From a virus: a stretch of DNA of 23,078 nt. The notes below the pieces were generated by a model, which worked only from the letters and a program-made list of their open reading frames with translations, was not told where the DNA came from and did not search any database. Shown one piece after another: positions 5,852 to 20,306 of the stretch. Where the stretch lies: IMG/VR virus record IMGVR_UViG_3300042291_000790, positions 1 to 23,078 of that record; one strand, given 5' to 3'. Each line of letters opens with the position of its first letter. The first letter of the stretch is position 1. Position numbers and translations under genes: made by a program.

Positions 5852-6195
5852 CGCACTTTAGAATCCTGACTAGATTTGTTCGCGTCTCGCGCAGCAATCA
5901 AACCAGCGCCGGCCATAATCTCGCCAGTTGCCAGTTGCAGCCCTTCCAGCGTCAGAGGCACTCCATCGGTCACCTGCAAGAGAGCATCAACCACAGCGCC
6001 CAACCCGTGCAAAATAAGAGCCACCCCAGCCAGTGTCGTTTTCCAGTTTAGCAGAAAAGGCAGGATCTTGTTGGAAAGCCATTTCATAGTCGTAGCGTGG
6101 ATGAGATTGGATTTGATGACCGGCCTGCCCGTTAGATCTTTCGCGCGCCGAACTTCTGGCCGCTTGCCAAAAATAGGATGTCCGGGTGCAGGCAT
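5848..6195 (-). CDS. Holin-like membrane protein
   Basis: A 115-aa protein. The ATG at 6193-6195 overlaps the upstream stop as TAATG, which supports this start; an internal ATG at codon 37 is the alternative. The first 36 residues are basic (GKRPEVRRAKDLTGRP). Then come NWKTTLAGVALILHGLGAV (about 50-68), a hydrophobic helix, and a second one at about 88-102 (ATGEIMAGAGLIAARDANKS). The pattern of N-W-K-T-T-x-A-G followed by a late hydrophobic A-G-x-G-L-I-x-A-x-D is one I recall from small phage holin-like proteins. It is predicted to sit in the inner membrane and release or activate the endolysin. No biochemical residue proves it. Confidence 0.75.
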   Translation of the reverse strand: MPAPGHPIFGKRPEVRRAKDLTGRPVIKSNLIHATTMKWLSNKILPFLLNWKTTLAGVALILHGLGAVVDALLQVTDGVPLTLEGLQLATGEIMAGAGLIAARDANKSSQDSKVR

Positions 6196-6491
6196 TACGG
6201 ATTCAGCTTGTTGTCAATTTTGTCGAGCTTCTCGACGATTGACCGCAGCAGTTGCGTGTCCGCGCTGTCCTTGATCTCCAGATTGCGGACTGTGGTGTTA
6301 GTCGCACCAATCGCATCCTTCACATCCCTAAGCGATTCCGTCTGCCTGTTAATCGCAATCTGGATTGCCGCCACCCATGTGCCCAGCATAAAGGCGCCGA
6401 CAAGCAGCGCCCAGCCTAGTTTGACCACCAAGTCGAGAATCTTGAGCTTTGACTCAAAATCCTGAAGTTGTTCGCGCGTGACAGATTCCAT
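6195..6491 (-). CDS. Membrane-anchored coiled-coil protein (possible holin or spanin partner)
   Basis: A 98-aa protein starting at ATG 6489-6491. Residues 1-20 are polar and helical, residues about 26-47 form one transmembrane helix (LGWALLVGAFMLGTWVAAIQ), and residues about 52-95 are a charged heptad-like coiled coil (LLRSIVEKLDKIDNKL). One membrane helix plus a coiled coil is the layout of XhlA-like haemolysin proteins and inner-membrane spanins, but the order here is helix first, so I keep the call general. It opens the lysis cassette and its stop overlaps the holin-like ATG as TAATG. A TTGACA element sits 19 nt before its ATG, just past the tRNA-like element. Confidence 0.75.
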   Translation of the reverse strand: MESVTREQLQDFESKLKILDLVVKLGWALLVGAFMLGTWVAAIQIAINRQTESLRDVKDAIGATNTTVRNLEIKDSADTQLLRSIVEKLDKIDNKLNP

Positions 6492-7078: not shown

Positions 7079-7828
7079 TTAAGAGCCTAGAACCAAAATG
7101 TTGACGTTGAGCCCGGTTGTTCCATTAAGGAAAACACTCAAAACATTTCCGTTAGCTGTTTTTACAGCCGACGCAGCGTTGTAAAGGAATGAACCGTTTT
7201 CGCGAATCGAGATTGCTGGAGACATTGTGAGCCCGCAAAAATCGGTTGCCGTAAGCTGAGCGCAAACAATTCCAGTTAAAGACCAGTTTGCGATAGTGCC
7301 AGTTCCACCGATGCGATCAATACCCATGACAAGAGCACCTGTCCCGCTAGTGTAGCTCGTAACGGTTCCTTCCATGTAGTTTGCGGTATTGGCTGCATCA
7401 GTCGCTCTCACCCGCATCCCTGAAACATACGCTAAGCCTGTTTGCGTTGTGAATGTTTTAGCTCCAGTGCCAATGGCCAATGAAGTCGTAGACGTTGCCG
7501 TTGGCTGCACCGAAGCAGGCGCAACAGTAGAGTCACGGCGAGTCACGGTCACATAAAAGCCTTTTAGGTTGTTAAAAACCAGAGTGGCATTTGTGATCGG
7601 ATTGGTAAGCAATGCAGCCGTGCCACCGTTGAGAACGGAACTGATCTGAAAGCTTGAGTTGACCGTCAGGGTGTTGACTGCTCCGCTTCCATAAGCCTCA
7701 AACACCCCCGAGATCAAACCCTCCTCCCGCACGATCAAGTCCGGCACCTGCTGAGTTGCGGAGGGAATGACCGAGTTGCCCGGATAGCTGTTTTGCGCTT
7801 TAAGCGTCAACGCGAAGATGTTCGGCAT
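7079..7828 (-). CDS. Beta-rich tail-associated protein, long paralogue with inserted module
   Basis: A 249-aa paralogue of the 160-aa neighbour (MPNIFALTLKAQNSYPGNSV). Residues about 111-187 form an extra module (LAIGTGAKTFTTQTGLAYV, GMRVRATDAANTANYMEGTV, IGGTGTIANWSLTG) absent from the short paralogue. I recall this type of module as widespread in phage fibres, and versions occur in the tail spike in this window. The conserved outer parts look like one beta domain split by the insertion. Placement with the adhesin-like genes suggests a tail-tip or fibre component. The start ATG at 7826-7828 has a TTGACA element exactly 14 nt upstream and no Shine-Dalgarno sequence. Confidence 0.7.
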   Translation of the reverse strand: MPNIFALTLKAQNSYPGNSVIPSATQQVPDLIVREEGLISGVFEAYGSGAVNTLTVNSSFQISSVLNGGTAALLTNPITNATLVFNNLKGFYVTVTRRDSTVAPASVQPTATSTTSLAIGTGAKTFTTQTGLAYVSGMRVRATDAANTANYMEGTVTSYTSGTGALVMGIDRIGGTGTIANWSLTGIVCAQLTATDFCGLTMSPAISIRENGSFLYNAASAVKTANGNVLSVFLNGTTGLNVNILVLGS

Positions 7829-7842
7829 AAAATGCGGTGGGA

Positions 7843-7848
7843 TGTCAA
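7843..7848 (-). promoter_or_regulatory. TTGACA element, 14 nt before the 249-aa gene
   Basis: Minus-strand ATTGACAT directly after the stop codon of the third glycine-rich gene, with exactly 14 nt to the ATG at 7828. No AGGAGG-like sequence lies between them. Confidence 0.45.
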
Positions 7849-7850
7849 TC

Positions 7851-8726
7851 TTAGATGTATGTCACGGTCGGCAGGCTGATAAAGACGCTGCCGACTTGAT
7901 GGTGCGTGATGGTCGATCCGGATCGGGTTAGAAGTCGGAGGTTGGCGGTTGTCGCACTAGAAGAAGGCTTGCTGGCCGACACTACAAACGAAGCACTCGA
8001 CACCGTCCATTTTCGTATGTTTGCGGCAGCTTTCGTGTAGTTCAGGAATTGCACAAGCAAACCCTCCTCCCCTCCTTCACCGTATCCGCCCTGCCCTCCA
8101 TCTCCTGCATTTTTTGGTTCTGAAGGTGGAGAGTTTGTTCCGGCGGCGCCACCAGCGCCACCAGTGCCGGGAGATCCGCTTGACCCATTGCCTCCAGCCG
8201 CGCCATTTGCCCCTTCTCCGCCTGTGGTCTTGCCTCCGCATCCGCCTCCGCCACCGCCGCCGCCTCCGCCACCCGTGCCGCCGATGACGGTCAGCGTCTC
8301 TTGATCCGCAGCCGAGAGAGCGCCAACTACTTGGCCTGTTGATGGAGTGAATCCGATCTGAAGCCAGATAGAGAACCCGGTCGCCACCGCAAGAGTTGCG
8401 CCGGCTACCGTCGCCACCGATTCAGTCCATCCTCCGCTGCTCGGGTTGTTTACATCGTAGGTGCTCCACGAGACGCCAAGCACCTTGCCTCCTTGAATGA
8501 CGACGTTCTCGCCGGACAGAACGCCTGTGAAGTCGATAACGCTGGAGGTAGCCGTCGCTCTGCCCTGCTTGCTTGATACGATGATGCCGTCCTCGGTCTC
8601 TTGCAGCGTGATGCCGTTGCCAGCAATTGGCATCTGCTCATAGATGGCCTTGCGAAACATGGCCAGCGTCTTTCCTTTGAGGAAATAGTGCAGATTGCCG
8701 AAGAAGTTGGGAAATTCAGGGAACAA
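7851..8726 (-). CDS. Glycine-rich tail-tip/adhesin protein, third tandem copy
   Basis: A 291-aa protein. The start is a TTG at 8724-8726; it is preferred because the N-terminus (FPEFPNFFGNLHYFLKGKTL) then aligns with that of the upstream paralogue (LPDIPNFNLGDVYVLTGKTL), which an ATG start at codon 23 would lose. Layout: conserved helical N-terminus (1-55), beta domain (60-148), glycine-rich segment (149-220) with a run of 11 glycines, then a conserved C-terminal beta domain (FLNYTKAAANIRKWTVSSAS). The glycine-rich part has GG-x-GG spacing compatible with polyglycine-II packing seen in gp38-type adhesins; this is an inference. It overlaps the upstream gene by 11 nt. Confidence 0.75.
   Translation of the reverse strand: MFPEFPNFFGNLHYFLKGKTLAMFRKAIYEQMPIAGNGITLQETEDGIIVSSKQGRATATSSVIDFTGVLSGENVVIQGGKVLGVSWSTYDVNNPSSGGWTESVATVAGATLAVATGFSIWLQIGFTPSTGQVVGALSAADQETLTVIGGTGGGGGGGGGGGCGGKTTGGEGANGAAGGNGSSGSPGTGGAGGAAGTNSPPSEPKNAGDGGQGGYGEGGEEGLLVQFLNYTKAAANIRKWTVSSASFVVSASKPSSSATTANLRLLTRSGSTITHHQVGSVFISLPTVTYI
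8067..8282 (-). repeat. Glycine-rich low-complexity coding repeat, copy 3
   Basis: It encodes residues 149-220 of the third glycine-rich protein. GGN codons dominate, including 11 consecutive glycines. Such tracts can expand or shrink by recombination or slippage. Confidence 0.6.
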
Positions 8727-9615
8727 AGGAGCTGATAAAGGTAGCTGCTGGCAGCGTTACGTGGTACGAGCCCGCATGATATTGAGTGACTACACCGCCC
8801 GTTTGTGAAGCGATCCGAATGTAGATGTTGGTGGCCGGTGACCCGGTTGGCTTGCTGGCAGAGACCTCAAGACTGGCAGAGGTGATTTGCCAGCGCCTAA
8901 ACACCATTAAAAGATTCGTGTAGTGGGTGAACGATTTGACCTGTCCGTTTCCGCCTGCTGCTCCGTTGCCTCCATCTCCACCTTCGGCTGGTGTTCCTGA
9001 TTCGGAGTTTGATGTCGAATTAACTCCTCCAGGCGTGTAATAGCCGGGACTGCCAGCAGTCTGTCCCGATGCGGCCTGACCGGTTGCGCCAGTAGATCCG
9101 ACCGTACCATCTCCGCCGGCCCCGCCTCCCCCACCGTCACCACCCGCACCGCCGCCGCCGGTCGTGACCGACAAATTCGTCGCGCCTATGGCCGAAAGCG
9201 CGCCGCTCATGTTTGCGTCGGTCTGCGAAAGCTGGATGCGCAACCACACGCTTTGACCGTCTGCCACAGCCAGCGTAGAAGGCCCGACAGTAAACTGTTC
9301 CGCTAGCCAGTCAGTCGGTAAAGGGTTGCTCATGGTTGGCGTTCCCCATGTGGTGCCGATGACCCGACCCACCGTAATATCGAGAGAGTTGGTGGCCGGT
9401 AGTGACGCCTTGAAGTCATGATTGATTGCCACCGTTGGCGCCACCTCCACCTGCTGGTCGGCGTGTAGCAGGATGCCCGCATTGGTCTCCTCCAGCCGGA
9501 TGTTGGCGCCCTCGATTGGAGTCTGCATCTTGATCCGCCGCACGATCTTTTCAAGCGTCTTGCCGGTCAGAACGTACACGTCACCCAAGTTAAAGTTTGG
9601 AATGTCTGGGAGCAT
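8716..9615 (-). CDS. Glycine-rich tail-tip/adhesin protein, second tandem copy
   Basis: A 299-aa paralogue of the genes on both sides. The N-terminus MLPDIPNFNLGDVYVLTGKT is followed by a helix (LEKIVRRIKMQTPIEGANIR) and a beta domain with W-L-R-I-Q-L-S near residue 125. The glycine-rich segment spans residues 153-224 (TGGGGAGGDGGGGGAGGDG, later GGDGGNGAAGGNG), broken by a Tyr/Pro/Ser-rich island (GSPGYYTPGGVNS) where surface loops could lie. The C-terminal domain (HYTNLLMVFRRWQITSASLE) is conserved among the copies. The ATG overlaps the previous stop as TGATG. It is probably a virion-surface tail-tip or adhesin protein; function is inferred from composition and position. Confidence 0.75.
   Translation of the reverse strand: MLPDIPNFNLGDVYVLTGKTLEKIVRRIKMQTPIEGANIRLEETNAGILLHADQQVEVAPTVAINHDFKASLPATNSLDITVGRVIGTTWGTPTMSNPLPTDWLAEQFTVGPSTLAVADGQSVWLRIQLSQTDANMSGALSAIGATNLSVTTGGGGAGGDGGGGGAGGDGTVGSTGATGQAASGQTAGSPGYYTPGGVNSTSNSESGTPAEGGDGGNGAAGGNGQVKSFTHYTNLLMVFRRWQITSASLEVSASKPTGSPATNIYIRIASQTGGVVTQYHAGSYHVTLPAATFISSFVP
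8944..9159 (-). repeat. Glycine-rich low-complexity coding repeat, copy 2
   Basis: It encodes residues 153-224 of the second glycine-rich protein: two GGGGAGGDG-like blocks, a non-glycine island, then GGDGGNGAAGGNG. Confidence 0.6.
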
Positions 9616-10493
9616 CAGGCGATGATGAAGGTGATGGCCGGTGGCGTGATTGAGATGCTGCCCGCCACGTGCTGCGTTATGCTCGTGCCGCTAATAGTTG
9701 CTAGTTGAATCCACGAGACGGCCTCACTCGATGCGCCCTTGGCCGTGTGTAGCGAGATCCCGTTGATGCTCCACTTGCGGATTTGCGCGGTTGCTTTTGT
9801 CGCACGAGTAAAGGTAACGCTGCCACCCTCGCCCCCTGCGCCGCCGTAGCCGCCAGCACCGCCGCTGGCGCCGTAGCTGTTGCCGAGTCCGGTCACCCTA
9901 GTTGGCGGAGTTGTAAGAATATCCTCCACAATGCCTCCTTGGCCGCCAACACCGGTGAAATCTCCGCTGTCTCCGCCGGAGCCATCTCTTCCCACAATAT
10001 CCGGCCACACTCCGCTGTTTGCACCGCCGCCACCACCGCCACCACCGCGTCCACCCGCAGCGCCCGAGATGTTGTAAGCGGTAGTGCCAAGTGGTCCGGT
10101 CGTGGTTGTATCATTCTCGGACCACAGCACGCTGAGCCAGACTTGTGTCACCGTGCCGGTCAAAGTGCCGCCGATGTAATTGACCTCTCGCTGCCAGTCG
10201 CCCGGCGTCGGATTATCGCCTACAATGGCACCCCAGAGCGGGTACAGCAGCTTACCGGGTGCGACGACCACATTAGTGCCATCAAGCGACACAGCGAAGC
10301 CCAGAGCGAAAGGAGCGGCCACTCCGCCGGAGCCAAGGCGGTCGATAATCTGGCCGTCCTTGGTCTCGGTGATGATGACCGTCTCGGAGCTGAGCAGCCG
10401 CTGGAGCTTGATGCGATCGACCAGACGGTTGAGCAGCCAGCCCGACCGTCCGCCGTTGACCTTCGGGTCGATGACTGGAAGTTCTGGCAGCAT
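9615..10493 (-). CDS. Glycine-rich tail-tip/adhesin protein, first tandem copy
   Basis: A 292-aa protein and the most diverged of the three copies at its N-terminus (MLPELPVIDPKVNGGRSGWL). It shares the same plan: helix with LVDRIKLQ, E-T-x-D-G-x-I-I motif near residue 43-50, beta domain with VWLSVLWSENDT, glycine-rich segment at 144-225 (AAGGRGGGGGGGG, GGAGGYGGAGGEGG), and a C-terminal domain with ATKATAQIRKWSINGISLHT. The glycine tract is interrupted by a 25-residue non-glycine insert (IVEDILTTPPTRVTGLGNSY), a candidate for a variable receptor loop. The start ATG 10491-10493 lies just after the stop of the 216-aa gene, with GGATG about 15 nt upstream. The host-recognition role is inferred. 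Confidence 0.75.
   Translation of the reverse strand: MLPELPVIDPKVNGGRSGWLLNRLVDRIKLQRLLSSETVIITETKDGQIIDRLGSGGVAAPFALGFAVSLDGTNVVVAPGKLLYPLWGAIVGDNPTPGDWQREVNYIGGTLTGTVTQVWLSVLWSENDTTTTGPLGTTAYNISGAAGGRGGGGGGGGANSGVWPDIVGRDGSGGDSGDFTGVGGQGGIVEDILTTPPTRVTGLGNSYGASGGAGGYGGAGGEGGSVTFTRATKATAQIRKWSINGISLHTAKGASSEAVSWIQLATISGTSITQHVAGSISITPPAITFIIA
9819..10064 (-). repeat. Glycine-rich low-complexity coding repeat, copy 1
   Basis: It encodes residues 144-225 of the first glycine-rich protein, with an uninterrupted run of eight glycines and a GGAGGYGGAGGEGG block. Confidence 0.6.
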
Positions 10494-12928: not shown

Positions 12929-13165
12929 TTATGTCAATGAGTTGACAACTCGATTCGTCTTACGCCGCTGGATGTAATCCATCGCGTTCTTGATGGTCTC
13001 GTCCTCCATCATGTCGTGCCCGACCCACTGGGTTTCGATGCCTTCCTTGACCAGTGCGATATGCAAGTATGCAAGCCCGCGACAGAGCGGCAATTCCCAC
13101 AGAATCTCCTGCTCCGTCAGTCCGGTCACGGGTCGCACCAATGACACGTAGTGCGCTTGGAACAC
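12929..13165 (-). CDS. Tail assembly chaperone, T part (made as a G-T fusion by -1 frameshift)
   Basis: A 78-codon frame if begun at GTG 13163-13165, but it is open without a stop back to the slippery heptamer at 13180-13186 in the preceding gene. It is therefore best read as the C-terminal 83 residues of a -1 frameshift product of about 232 aa, as lambda gpGT. After the slip the junction reads A-L-A-S-P-V-F-Q-A-H-Y. The T part has GLTEQEILWELPLCRGLAYL and ends KTNRVVNSLT. The lambda T part binds the tape measure; here it lies directly upstream of the tape measure gene. No separate ribosome binding site is visible for the GTG. Confidence 0.8.
   Translation of the reverse strand: MFQAHYVSLVRPVTGLTEQEILWELPLCRGLAYLHIALVKEGIETQWVGHDMMEDETIKNAMDYIQRRKTNRVVNSLT
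12932..12937 (-). promoter_or_regulatory. TTGACA element, 14 nt before the tape measure gene
   Basis: Minus-strand ATTGACAT with exactly 14 nt to the ATG at 12917. It also forms the right arm of a small inverted repeat with TGTCAA four bases away. The TAA stop of the GT frame overlaps it. Confidence 0.45.
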
Positions 13166-14026: not shown

Positions 14027-14431
14027 TTAGACGACGAATGGGTATTGCTTCACTGAGAAGGTAGTCTTGGCCATCTCGGTGTTGGTCTCCGAGCGGTTTG
14101 GGTCCATGAAGATCATGGTGCCGTCATTCGGGTCAAACCCGTAGGTGAGGGCAGCAAAGTTGGCTAGAGTGGTCACTTCCGTCCCTGGATGCTGGTTGGC
14201 CAGTCCAAGAGTCTTATTGGACAGGTAACCATCGAACGCAAAGGTGATCGTTGGGTTGCGGTATTCAAGCCCAAAGGTGGCCCCAGCGGCGTTCAGGTAA
14301 GCCTTCTCGTCACGCGCAGCCGTGATCGTCAAAGACTGAACGAGGATGTCTGGAGTAACGGCATTGCTCTCATCCAGCAGCGTTGAGGATGGAATGTTTC
14401 CGTGTTGAATCAAAGCGGCGACGGCAGGCAT
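14027..14431 (-). CDS. Probable major tail tube protein
   Basis: A 134-aa beta-rich protein (MPAVAALIQHGNIPSSTLLD). Its position fits the tail tube slot: after the tail-completion genes and before the chaperone and tape measure genes. Strands such as ATFGLEYRNPTITFAFDGYL and ending TTFSVKQYPFVV suit a small tube fold, but the family is not recognisable by eye, so the call is mainly positional. An abundant structural protein would need strong expression; its start ATG 14429-14431 has no Shine-Dalgarno sequence but has TTGACA exactly 14 nt upstream. Confidence 0.6.
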   Translation of the reverse strand: MPAVAALIQHGNIPSSTLLDESNAVTPDILVQSLTITAARDEKAYLNAAGATFGLEYRNPTITFAFDGYLSNKTLGLANQHPGTEVTTLANFAALTYGFDPNDGTMIFMDPNRSETNTEMAKTTFSVKQYPFVV

Positions 14432-14445
14432 ATTTTAAGAGTTGA

Positions 14446-14451
14446 TGTCAA
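14446..14451 (-). promoter_or_regulatory. TTGACA element, 14 nt before the probable tail tube gene
   Basis: Minus-strand ATTGACAT overlapping the stop of the previous gene, with 14 nt (A/T-rich, no Shine-Dalgarno) to the ATG at 14431. Confidence 0.45.
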
Positions 14452-16034: not shown

Positions 16035-16445
16035 TTAGGTCAGCAGTCTGACGGAGGCGCTCACCGCGCTCATGTCGCCCGTAGTGCCGGCTGTGGTGAA
16101 TTTGGCGTTCACGTAGCGCGGACAGTTGGCAGGAAGCCGAAATCGGAAGGATGTTTGAGGGATTGCGCTACCTGTGCCAGTCAGCACCGCTGAGATGTTT
16201 AGGCTCGTGGTTGGAGTGACTGCCGATCCACCTTGTAAGAGGATGGTCAGCGTGTCCGCCGAGGCGAGCTGTGTGGCAGTCAACGCAGGAATCAAAACCT
16301 CAAGCTCGTGCTCCTCAGTTAAAAACCCTTTGGAGTTGGTGCCGAGGTCGATGTCGGGAGAAGTGACGTTGCCGTCAGCGGAGGTCAGGAGCCGCGCCTT
16401 GGTAAGGTCCGCATCCTGCGTGTTGCGAGAAAATTCGTTAGCCAT
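16035..16445 (-). CDS. Capsid cement/decoration-like protein
   Basis: A 136-aa protein (MANEFSRNTQDADLTKARLL) with an all-beta look: VTSPDIDLGTNSKG, then ELEVLIPALTATQLASADTL, a long TLTILLQGG strand and a last part with YVNAKFTTAGTTG ending VSASVRLLT. The layout resembles the Bbp16 family of capsid cement proteins of a Bordetella phage, by memory. Its position right after the major capsid gene and before the terminator supports a highly expressed head component. The start ATG 16443-16445 follows a short 19-nt gap after the capsid gene with AAAGAA as a weak upstream site. The family assignment is tentative. Confidence 0.65.
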   Translation of the reverse strand: MANEFSRNTQDADLTKARLLTSADGNVTSPDIDLGTNSKGFLTEEHELEVLIPALTATQLASADTLTILLQGGSAVTPTTSLNISAVLTGTGSAIPQTSFRFRLPANCPRYVNAKFTTAGTTGDMSAVSASVRLLT

Positions 16446-16464: not shown

Positions 16465-17406
16465 TTAAGCGGTAAGAGCTTCATCGTTCGCGATGGAGTC
16501 AGTGATGACGATTGGGATACCGTTGGACTCAAGTGGCAACGGAGCGAAAACTTCGGCGCCGGTGGCGGATTTAGCGCCGAGAGCAGAGAAGGCGGTTGAA
16601 CGGCTGGTCTGGAGCTGAAAGGCCGAGCGGCGGTTCATCAACCAATAGTTTGGACGATAGCCAACCGGGTACTTGCTGAGCAACTCGGCCAGTTTGGCAT
16701 CGGTAACACCCATACCTGAATCAGCGGTGGCGTCTTTGAGGCGGCCCACGCTGTACTTGCTGCCGACTTGCATACCCACCCAAGCGGTCAAGTTTGCAAC
16801 GTGCGCTGGGTACACCGAAGAGGTGCCGACGTTTTCAATGCGCCACTCACCAAGCTCAAAGGTGGTGCTGGAGCCGAACACGAGTTGGACGCCTTGGGTG
16901 TCGGTATTGATGCCGTACACCGAGGAGCCGGTAGCAGCACTGGTGCCGCCAGCATCAACCACGAGGCCGGAGTTAAACGCGGTGTGGATTGCTTGCAGGC
17001 CAGGGAAGCCCTTCGCATCAACGGAGGTTCCGTAGATGACCTGTGAACCAAGCTCGATCATCGCTTGGCGCATGACGCCGATAGATTCGATGTCTTTCCA
17101 CGCTTGTTCGCCGTCCTCGTAGGCGCGAGCGACTGCAACGTCGGCCTGTACAGCACCGCTGAGGATGTAACACTCGATCAACTGGTTCTCGAACTCCGAT
17201 TTGCTCGGGGTCGATCCTTCGTTTGCCGCGCGGAAGCCGACGCCAGGATACGAGACGCGCGAGGCGATCTTGTACGAGGTGCCGCGAATGGTGCGCGCTG
17301 GCATGATCTGCACCTCGGGAGCGTAGGTGAGGGTTTCCTCAATCAGCCCGACGATGGTGTCGGAGCCGTTAAGTTTGGCAATGTCGAGAAGATTGGCTTG
17401 TGGCAT
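16465..17406 (-). CDS. Major capsid protein, HK97-fold
   Basis: A 313-aa protein (MPQANLLDIAKLNGSDTIVG). Residues about 35-60 (IMPARTIRGTSYKIASRVSY, GVGFRAANEG) fit the E-loop/N-arm region of HK97-like coat proteins, and the end (SNGIPIVITDSIANDEAL) is a typical final beta element before a short tail. It has no long N-terminal delta domain, consistent with a separate scaffold made from the upstream gene. It lies between the protease/scaffold gene and a cement-like gene, the standard place. No Shine-Dalgarno site is visible before ATG 17404-17406, which is surprising for the most abundant virion protein. Sub-family is not assigned. Confidence 0.88.
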   Translation of the reverse strand: MPQANLLDIAKLNGSDTIVGLIEETLTYAPEVQIMPARTIRGTSYKIASRVSYPGVGFRAANEGSTPSKSEFENQLIECYILSGAVQADVAVARAYEDGEQAWKDIESIGVMRQAMIELGSQVIYGTSVDAKGFPGLQAIHTAFNSGLVVDAGGTSAATGSSVYGINTDTQGVQLVFGSSTTFELGEWRIENVGTSSVYPAHVANLTAWVGMQVGSKYSVGRLKDATADSGMGVTDAKLAELLSKYPVGYRPNYWLMNRRSAFQLQTSRSTAFSALGAKSATGAEVFAPLPLESNGIPIVITDSIANDEALTA

Positions 17407-17424: not shown

Positions 17425-17835
17425 TTATGAGTTGGCCGAAACGTAAACCGCTTCGGTTGGGAATTTTTCGGTGAACGCACGAACCGCTTTTAAGCGATCA
17501 AGGCCGGTGGCCGTTCCGATAGCTTGGTTTTTGGCTTCGTGGTAGGAGATCGCTGGGACTTTAACCTCTGGCTCGTTGATAGGAGCGGCAAACGCAGCAG
17601 GAGCAGGAGCGGCGGCGGCCAGTCGAGCTTGCAGCTCAATGTCGCTGTTACCAGCTTGCAACGCTTCCACGTAGGCCTTAAGTGCCTCACACTCGGCTAA
17701 CACCTTGGCATTGTCAGCGGCGAATTGCGCAGCCACTTCGTCGAACTTGGCGGTAAACGCGGCGAACTGCTCCGCAATCAGAGCGGAAAAATCAACTTGA
17801 GGTTCTGGCGCAGGCGCCGGTGGGTCAATTGGCAT
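17425..17835 (-). CDS. Internal in-frame scaffold start (Nu3-like)
   Basis: Same frame as the protease gene, from ATG 17833-17835 (codon 168) to the shared stop, giving 136 aa beginning MPIDPPAPAPEPQVDFSALI and containing the whole coiled-coil scaffold region. The ATG is preceded by GAGGAA at good Shine-Dalgarno spacing and by TTGACA exactly 14 nt upstream, the same spacing as five other starts in this window. It falls precisely at the domain boundary after the protease. Internal starts making a separate scaffold are known for lambda C/Nu3. It could still be a coincidence of codon use (the element encodes Ile-Asp-Ser). Confidence 0.6.
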   Translation of the reverse strand: MPIDPPAPAPEPQVDFSALIAEQFAAFTAKFDEVAAQFAADNAKVLAECEALKAYVEALQAGNSDIELQARLAAAAPAPAAFAAPINEPEVKVPAISYHEAKNQAIGTATGLDRLKAVRAFTEKFPTEAVYVSANS

Positions 17836-18336
17836 AACATCTTCCTCACTGTCAATCTCGTCAGCCGAGAACACGCCGTCAGCGTTGGCTGCTGGTGTGT
17901 CTACAAAGTCAGCCGAGTACAAGCCGCGCGGGCGGGTCATGTAGTTGCCACTCTCCTTGTCCAACTCTGGCGCATCCGCTGAAAACATCAAGCTGACGCC
18001 AAAAGTGGACGGGATTTCGTTGATCATCTCCAGTAGCATCTCCTTTCCGCTGTGCGCGTCAAATAGGGTCAGGTCAGCAAGAAGCTTGCCTTTGCTGACT
18101 CGAAAATTCTCGTAATAGCCCACCGTGTCTTGGACGCTAGAGAAGTGATTCAGCTTTGCCTTGACCCGTCCCTTCTCGATTGCCAGTGACTTAAACTTGT
18201 TCAGCGAACGCTTGTCCACAAACACCCCATGACCGAGTGCAGGGCCTTCCTGAATCAAGGAAACACCCATGATGGTATTTCCTGAAACCTTGCCTTGGAA
18301 CGCTGCGAATGTCTGAATCTCTTCTTTGACGAGCAT
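17425..18336 (-). CDS. Prohead protease fused to scaffold
   Basis: A 303-aa protein starting at ATG 18334-18336; a longer frame from 18429 would lie inside the portal gene. Residues 1-150 look like a head maturation protease: SGNTIMGVSLIQEGPALGHG, then RVKAKLNHFS with candidate catalytic His64, and TFGVSLMFSA with candidate Ser115, the order of S78-type prohead proteases. Residues 171-183 are Pro-rich and about 185-228 form a coiled coil (FAAFTAKFDEVAAQFAADNA). The C-terminal tail (about 255-303) may bind the coat protein. ATG 17833-17835 (codon 168) could start a scaffold-only form, as Nu3 within lambda C. A TTGACA element precedes the gene by 14 nt. Confidence 0.82.
   Translation of the reverse strand: MLVKEEIQTFAAFQGKVSGNTIMGVSLIQEGPALGHGVFVDKRSLNKFKSLAIEKGRVKAKLNHFSSVQDTVGYYENFRVSKGKLLADLTLFDAHSGKEMLLEMINEIPSTFGVSLMFSADAPELDKESGNYMTRPRGLYSADFVDTPAANADGVFSADEIDSEEDVMPIDPPAPAPEPQVDFSALIAEQFAAFTAKFDEVAAQFAADNAKVLAECEALKAYVEALQAGNSDIELQARLAAAAPAPAAFAAPINEPEVKVPAISYHEAKNQAIGTATGLDRLKAVRAFTEKFPTEAVYVSANS
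17850..17855 (-). promoter_or_regulatory. TTGACA element, 14 nt before the internal scaffold ATG
   Basis: Minus-strand ATTGACAG inside the protease/scaffold gene, with exactly 14 nt to the ATG at 17835. The spacer also contains GAGGAA. Confidence 0.45.
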
Positions 18337-18350
18337 ACTGGCCGCCCCGA

Positions 18351-18356
18351 TGTCAA
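18351..18356 (-). promoter_or_regulatory. TTGACA element, 14 nt before the protease/scaffold gene
   Basis: Minus-strand ATTGACAT overlapping the TGA stop of the portal gene, 14 nt before the ATG at 18336. The spacer contains GGGGCGG. Confidence 0.45.
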
Positions 18357-20002: not shown

Positions 20003-20274
20003 AGCGGAAAGGTTGAAAAGTCAGGTTTGAGGCGGTTGGAGATACCCGGATACTTTACGGGGTCGAGCTGGTGCATTCTGCGCATCACAGCCCGCATCAA
20101 AGTCATGACGGGAATGCCGCCATCCGATCCAGATGCGCGGGTTTCGGACTCACCGCCGCCCGATGTGCTGATAACGATGGTGCCCTGCCCTTCGGTCAGC
20201 GCCGAAAGACACTGATCGTAAAGCGTCTCGCAAAATTGCAGAGAAGCATACCGTAAAATCGAAGGTCCGCCCAT
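19999..20274 (-). CDS. 91-aa hypothetical protein in the gpW position
   Basis: Between the terminase stop and the portal start. The frame is open much further upstream, but the only sensible start is ATG 20272-20274, just after the terminase stop; the longer reading would lie inside the terminase gene. The 91-aa protein begins MGGPSILRYASLQFCETLYD, has a Gly/Ser-rich segment (TSGGGESETRASGSDGG), then a basic helix (VMTLMRAVMRRMHQLDPVKY). It holds the place of head-completion gpW in lambda but does not look like gpW, so it is unnamed. TTGACA lies exactly 14 nt before the ATG, inside a 9-bp inverted repeat. Its stop overlaps the portal ATG. Confidence 0.75.
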   Translation of the reverse strand: MGGPSILRYASLQFCETLYDQCLSALTEGQGTIVISTSGGGESETRASGSDGGIPVMTLMRAVMRRMHQLDPVKYPGISNRLKPDFSTFPL

Positions 20275-20285
20275 AAAGTCACTCT

Positions 20286-20306
20286 GTCTGTCAAGCGTTG
20301 ACAGAC
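20286..20306 (-). promoter_or_regulatory. 9-bp inverted repeat with TTGACA element at the terminase stop
   Basis: GTCTGTCAA and TTGACAGAC separated by three bases form a perfect 9-bp hairpin in the transcript that includes the terminase TGA stop. The TTGACA at 20289-20294 lies 14 nt before the ATG at 20274. The right arm has no T-run after it, so it is not a typical terminator. Confidence 0.5.

Follow-up and report, generated by a model that had tools for sequence, protein, structure and literature searches.

The protease-scaffold gene of this virus appears to encode two coterminal proteins in one reading frame: a 303-aa protease-scaffold fusion and a 136-aa scaffold, the latter predicted to begin at an internal ATG (position 17835) that is marked by the hexamer TTGACA. 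The two proteins would assemble together, placing the protease inside, and the scaffold would then be degraded; we put the probability of this reading at roughly 0.87. The DNA and the proteins it predicts show the nested frames, the domain boundary between them, the conservation of the ATG together with TTGACA and their spacing, and further copies of this start signal elsewhere in the genome.

The window, by which we mean the whole stretch of 23,078 nt that was analysed (record IMGVR_UViG_3300042291_000790), carries a head and tail module on its minus strand, where all window features given here as ranges also lie. The module includes the small (phrog_57) and large (GpA) terminase subunits, a lambda-type portal, the protease-scaffold gene, the coat protein, a Bbp16-like protein and a tape measure. 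The Bbp16-like protein (16035..16445) is a weak candidate for a cement or decoration protein, its match to PF21190 (E 2e-4) falling under the curated cut-off. Three adjacent, mutually similar glycine-rich proteins with poly-Gly tracts are encoded at 7851-10493 and are probably tail-associated. Judged by coat protein, the nearest isolate is Akkermansia phage Chantilly (34%), and judged by terminase it is Verrucomicrobia phage P8625 (24%); the host is therefore likely to belong to the Verrucomicrobiota.

The full gene occupies 17425..18336 (303 codons plus stop, with a product of about 32.5 kDa) and has homologs on 64 viral contigs. Codons 1-158 (17863..18336) make up the protease domain. The internal ATG, codon 168 (17833..17835), opens an in-frame, coterminal frame of 136 codons plus stop (17425..17835) that begins MPIDPPAP; the predicted product, of about 14.2 kDa and pI about 4.5, would have the N-terminal peptide (M)PIDPPAPAPEPQ. 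AlphaFold2 (AF2) models this part of the protein as helices: a long coiled-coil helix at codons 184-229 (17650..17787; pLDDT mostly 70-87) and C-terminal helices at codons 265-302 (17431..17544; pLDDT 78-85 across most of their length), the latter a candidate coat-binding end. Met168 therefore lies between the conserved end of the protease (VDTPAANADGVFS) and the coiled coil, and the claim of an earlier note on this DNA that codon 168 falls at the protease/scaffold boundary is borne out by the AF2 domain models and a structural match found with Foldseek.

That match concerns the protease. AF2 treated the protease part of the full-length protein poorly, and codons 1-158 were modelled alone, giving a model of moderate quality (pTM 0.65). 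The best PDB match of this model in Foldseek was T4 gp21 (probability 1.00, E 2e-3, TM about 0.53), most of the next matches being herpesvirus assemblins; prohead proteases dominated the named matches in BFVD, with E-values down to 2e-6. A nine-sequence alignment that includes the 29%-identical L177 shows no variation at four residues, H36, H64, S115 and D146. On the strength of the model, the N-terminal domain reads as an assemblin-fold prohead protease. Sequence searches of Pfam, PHROGs and the PDB returned no family for it, and the window protein has no match to PF01343 (peptidase S49). Distant protease-scaffold fusions at L177:3935-5059 and L179:3815-4831 (Bacteroides phage BK735P4) have a Met near the boundary with A-rich sequence upstream; these genes, too, possibly contain nested starts.

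Conservation of the internal ATG in relatives had been proposed as a check on the start, and the relatives bear it out. Sixty full-length copies, the window's included, were aligned, and the aligned set together with three more diverged copies (L101, L105 and L111) comprises 42 distinct genes, which are kin and hence not 42 independent observations. Every one of the 42 contains exactly one in-frame TTGACA-N14-ATG, down to 30% protein identity, and in every one the scaffold frame is in frame and coterminal with the protease gene; ATG, frame, hexamer and spacing are invariant. Since the homologs are related, the strongest independent case is L111, which is 30% identical overall and retains the in-frame element. 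The internal ATG is likewise invariant across the 60 aligned copies, while the residues that accompany it vary (MPIDPP, MPTDS, MSTDK, MLTEK, MVE, MGDPS). These patterns suggest that the internal start codon and its initiation signal are under selection.

The constraint at TTGACA (17850..17855) acts on nucleotides and not on protein, because the codon of D162 is fixed as GAC and because residue 163 may be S, T, K or N, yet its codon always starts with the A that completes the hexamer. Among 56 degenerate alignment columns in which the amino acid is invariant, only two are also invariant in codon, F118 and D162, the GAC of the latter lying inside TTGACA. Throughout the linker (codons 158-190), D162 and M168 are the only invariant residues, and the rest varies freely. 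This bears on the possibility that codon 168 is no start at all, that only the fusion is made, and that cleavage near the boundary frees the scaffold in the manner of P2 gpO, Met168 being part of the cleavage site. Single-polypeptide protease-scaffolds do exist, as in P2 (PMC8508860), and the linker before Met168, which is acidic and modelled by AF2 with low confidence, is a plausible place to cut. A cleavage site would not explain why ATT or GTT followed by GAC A persists although residue 163 can be S, T, K or N, why the residues beside Met168 vary freely, or why TTGACA stands at precisely this distance before five other gene starts. We regard cleavage without an internal start as unlikely.

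The five other starts are those of the protease gene itself (ATG 18336; TTGACA at 18351..18356, where its TGA is the stop codon of the portal gene), a connector-like gene (start 20274; 20289..20294), the gene starting at 14431 (14446..14451), the tape-measure gene (start 12917; 12932..12937) and the gene starting at 7828 (7843..7848), all with the hexamer 14 nt before the start. Thus 6 of the 10 coding-strand copies of TTGACA are followed by N14-ATG (starts 20274, 18336, 17835, 14431, 12917 and 7828); the other strand of the window contains no TTGACA-N14-ATG. The recurrence exceeds chance. TTGACA at N14 is the top pair of hexamer and spacing upstream of ATGs in the window, with its six occurrences, and in 200 dinucleotide shuffles the best pair of any kind reached a maximum of 5 (three shuffles) and never 6; TTGACA-N14-ATG itself appeared a mean of 0.1 times per shuffle. 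Further copies of TTGACA stand 16 nt before the start at 6195 and 19 nt before those at 6491 and 1111.

The element is distributed unevenly among the starts. None of the 14 starts with an upstream stop codon at most 8 nt away has TTGACA-N14, and 6 of the remaining 12 do when the connector start is placed at 20274 (Fisher p about 0.004, corrected by hand), a figure that becomes 5 of 12 (p 0.012) if it is taken as 20273. Several uncoupled starts, the coat gene's among them, lack TTGACA-N14. Eleven relatives carry TTGACA-N14-ATG five or six times per genome. In four diverged relatives (L111, L112, L114 and L115) TTGACA is confined to the coding strand, where it frequently precedes starts by 13-16 nt, and in the two of these genomes with 70% GC it is about tenfold above expectation; its TGA sometimes doubles as the stop codon of the upstream gene in these four.

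The earlier note had placed two elements ahead of codon 168, GAGGAA and TTGACA at its usual 14-nt spacing. Both are present, and the second half of the claim stands, given the five other starts; GAGGAA (17842..17847, inside the spacer), the proposed Shine-Dalgarno sequence, is unconserved and probably not the signal, TTGACA being conserved instead. An ordinary Shine-Dalgarno start, with TTGACA incidental, would account for the window's GAGGAA, which stands 6 nt from the ATG. A conserved Shine-Dalgarno sequence 5-10 nt upstream of the ATG was sought among the homologs and rejected: an SD-like tetramer lies within the spacer in 14 of the 42 distinct genes and is missing from 28, while TTGACA and its spacing are invariant. 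The spacer otherwise varies freely among genes and relatives, and the spacers of the other TTGACA starts have no clear Shine-Dalgarno sequence. A start led by GAGGAA is, in our judgment, very improbable.

TTGACA is also the sigma70 -35 consensus, and the hexamer could in principle belong to an internal promoter that yields a separate scaffold transcript, as in herpesvirus UL26.5. A Verrucomicrobiota genome (G252) contains TTGACA-N14-ATGATATAA sites that are plainly promoter-like. At the phage sites there is no -10 element at 16-18 nt; the bases at that distance come after the ATG and are unrelated from site to site. A promoter scan, confined to the sigma70 consensus, found none at the internal ATG. 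Moreover, a -35 element so placed would start transcription inside the gene, downstream of the ATG, and promoters are not expected to keep a fixed spacing to an ATG. With neither a -10 nor a match in that sigma70 scan, we rejected an internal sigma70 promoter and consider it highly doubtful as the source of the short protein; translation from the internal ATG is the reading we retain.

Use of the element by hosts was sought in Verrucomicrobiota genomes. A scan of 388 gave N14 matches, but when 30 of the highest-scoring genomes were scanned for N11 as a control, most had similar counts, and host use of the motif was rejected. The clearest exception, G252, reflects promoters: this small genome (L150-L169) has many promoter-like TTGACA-N14-ATGATATAA sites that are much alike, a trap for motif scans, and being plainly of the sigma70 type they were rejected as start signals. 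Sampling of gene starts in two Verrucomicrobiota genomes (G045 and G018) showed no TTGACA peak. G045 (L180-L199) is SD-scarce (5.6%), and AAAACC directly before the ATG is enriched at its gene starts; its AACC-ATG starts resemble some of the other starts in the phages. A search of 16S-bearing loci for complementarity (TGTCAA) gave no lead. No prophage emerged when genomes were scanned with the protease-scaffold profile; the coat profile found just one, in Akkermansia.

The coat protein (16465..17406) gives a reason to look for a scaffold. It belongs to the epsilon15 gp7 family (NF045672, E 2e-46; PF20911), and its residues 6-310 align with positions 2-308 of the 309 in the NF045672 model. This end-to-end alignment confirms the earlier statement that the protein lacks an HK97-type delta domain, which would add about 100 aa at the N-terminus; a separate scaffold is therefore expected. 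Relatives of the coat protein (49-70%) are found with three protease/scaffold layouts. In nine (L110, L112-L115, L117, L121, L130 and L133) the protease gene is S49/ClpP-like, Pfam-confirmed as S49 (PF01343) for L110 and L114, and a coiled-coil ORF of about 133-176 aa stands by itself immediately ahead of the coat gene. In L119, L122-L132 except L130, and Chantilly, a Mu gpI-type protease is fused to the scaffold, and those copies that were examined carry a Met where the two parts join. The window type, together with L101, L105 and L111, has the assemblin-fold protease fused to the scaffold. One coat-protein family is thus paired with three protease types (S49, Mu gpI and assemblin-fold), and with a scaffold that is either separate or fused. 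Free-standing and fused scaffolds are alike in position, in coiled-coil nature and in a short GL.RV..AF-like end. Since a profile comparison of the stand-alone scaffolds with the window scaffold yielded a match of just 11 columns (probability 3.5%, not significant), we infer their homology mainly from position, with the coiled-coil nature and the short motif in addition.

The arrangement has counterparts in several viruses. In herpesviruses, the UL26 gene fuses an assemblin protease to a scaffold, and UL26.5, beginning at an internal Met, supplies the scaffold in a shorter form with the same C-terminus. The window gene resembles this pair in its fusion of an assemblin-fold protease, by fold match, with a scaffold that would also be made alone from an internal Met, and differs in that UL26.5 has its own promoter, none being evident at the window's internal ATG. 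T4 gp21 offers the closest solved fold to the window protease domain; the T4 protease and main scaffold, gp22, are encoded by separate genes, unlike the fused domains of the window. In lambda, the 3′ end of the protease gene C also encodes the Nu3 scaffold in the same frame; the two products are coterminal, and Nu3 begins at an internal site of its own (Shaw and Murialdo 1980, cited in PMC8508860). The likeness to Nu3 within C drawn in the earlier note holds for the gene layout, a coterminal in-frame scaffold in a capsid protease gene with an internal start (predicted here), and fails for the enzyme: lambda C is of the S49/ClpP type, whereas the window protease has the assemblin/T4 gp21 fold. 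The window start is, in addition, marked by TTGACA-N14 rather than by a conserved Shine-Dalgarno sequence. Mu (I/Z) and Mu-like Pseudomonas phages have an in-frame scaffold start inside the protease-scaffold gene (PMC4378225), PaMx73 being reported with a Shine-Dalgarno sequence and a Val start, unlike the window. The gpI-type fusions among the coat-gene relatives are of the Mu-like_Pro type and match PF10123 (Mu-like prophage I protein), a match that the window protein does not have.

By analogy with lambda C/Nu3 and Mu I/Z (PMC8508860, PMC4378225), the internal start most likely provides extra scaffold, while the full-length protein carries the protease inside. Ribosomes starting at 18336 would make the 303-aa fusion, and those starting at ATG 17835, with TTGACA 14 nt upstream, would make the 136-aa scaffold, presumably in excess. 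Both proteins share the C-terminal scaffold domain and should therefore assemble jointly with the coat protein; the fusion would bring the protease into the procapsid, the free scaffold would fill it, and the protease would afterwards degrade the scaffold. TTGACA itself would act in translation initiation.

The nested gene layout is known, and what appears not to have been described before is the non-SD start element. Our literature searches, which covered open-licence papers, found none describing a set hexamer that keeps a constant 14 nt from the start. SD-scarce bacteria, among them Bacteroidota and some Verrucomicrobiota, have starts without Shine-Dalgarno sequences, and Kozak-like bases near the start are reported for Flavobacterium (PMC6847099, PMC10783764); unlike the phage element, the starts in those two papers include no fixed hexamer at a fixed 14 nt. 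We lean, by a modest degree, toward the view that TTGACA-N14-ATG is such an undescribed initiation element, used wherever a de novo start is needed, within genes too, that closely packed genes use termination-reinitiation, and that the element is read by a segment of rRNA, a ribosomal protein or a phage factor.

The gene adds a clean case, this one with an assemblin-fold protease, to a nested protease/scaffold layout common to lambda, Mu and the herpesviruses. Its internal start exposes a signal that gene finders ignore, a hexamer at a fixed 14 nt; Shine-Dalgarno sites may be lacking in the hosts of this phage. If our reading of the element is correct, TTGACA-N14 would be a testable new way to recruit ribosomes, and start sites in such phages could be called more accurately.
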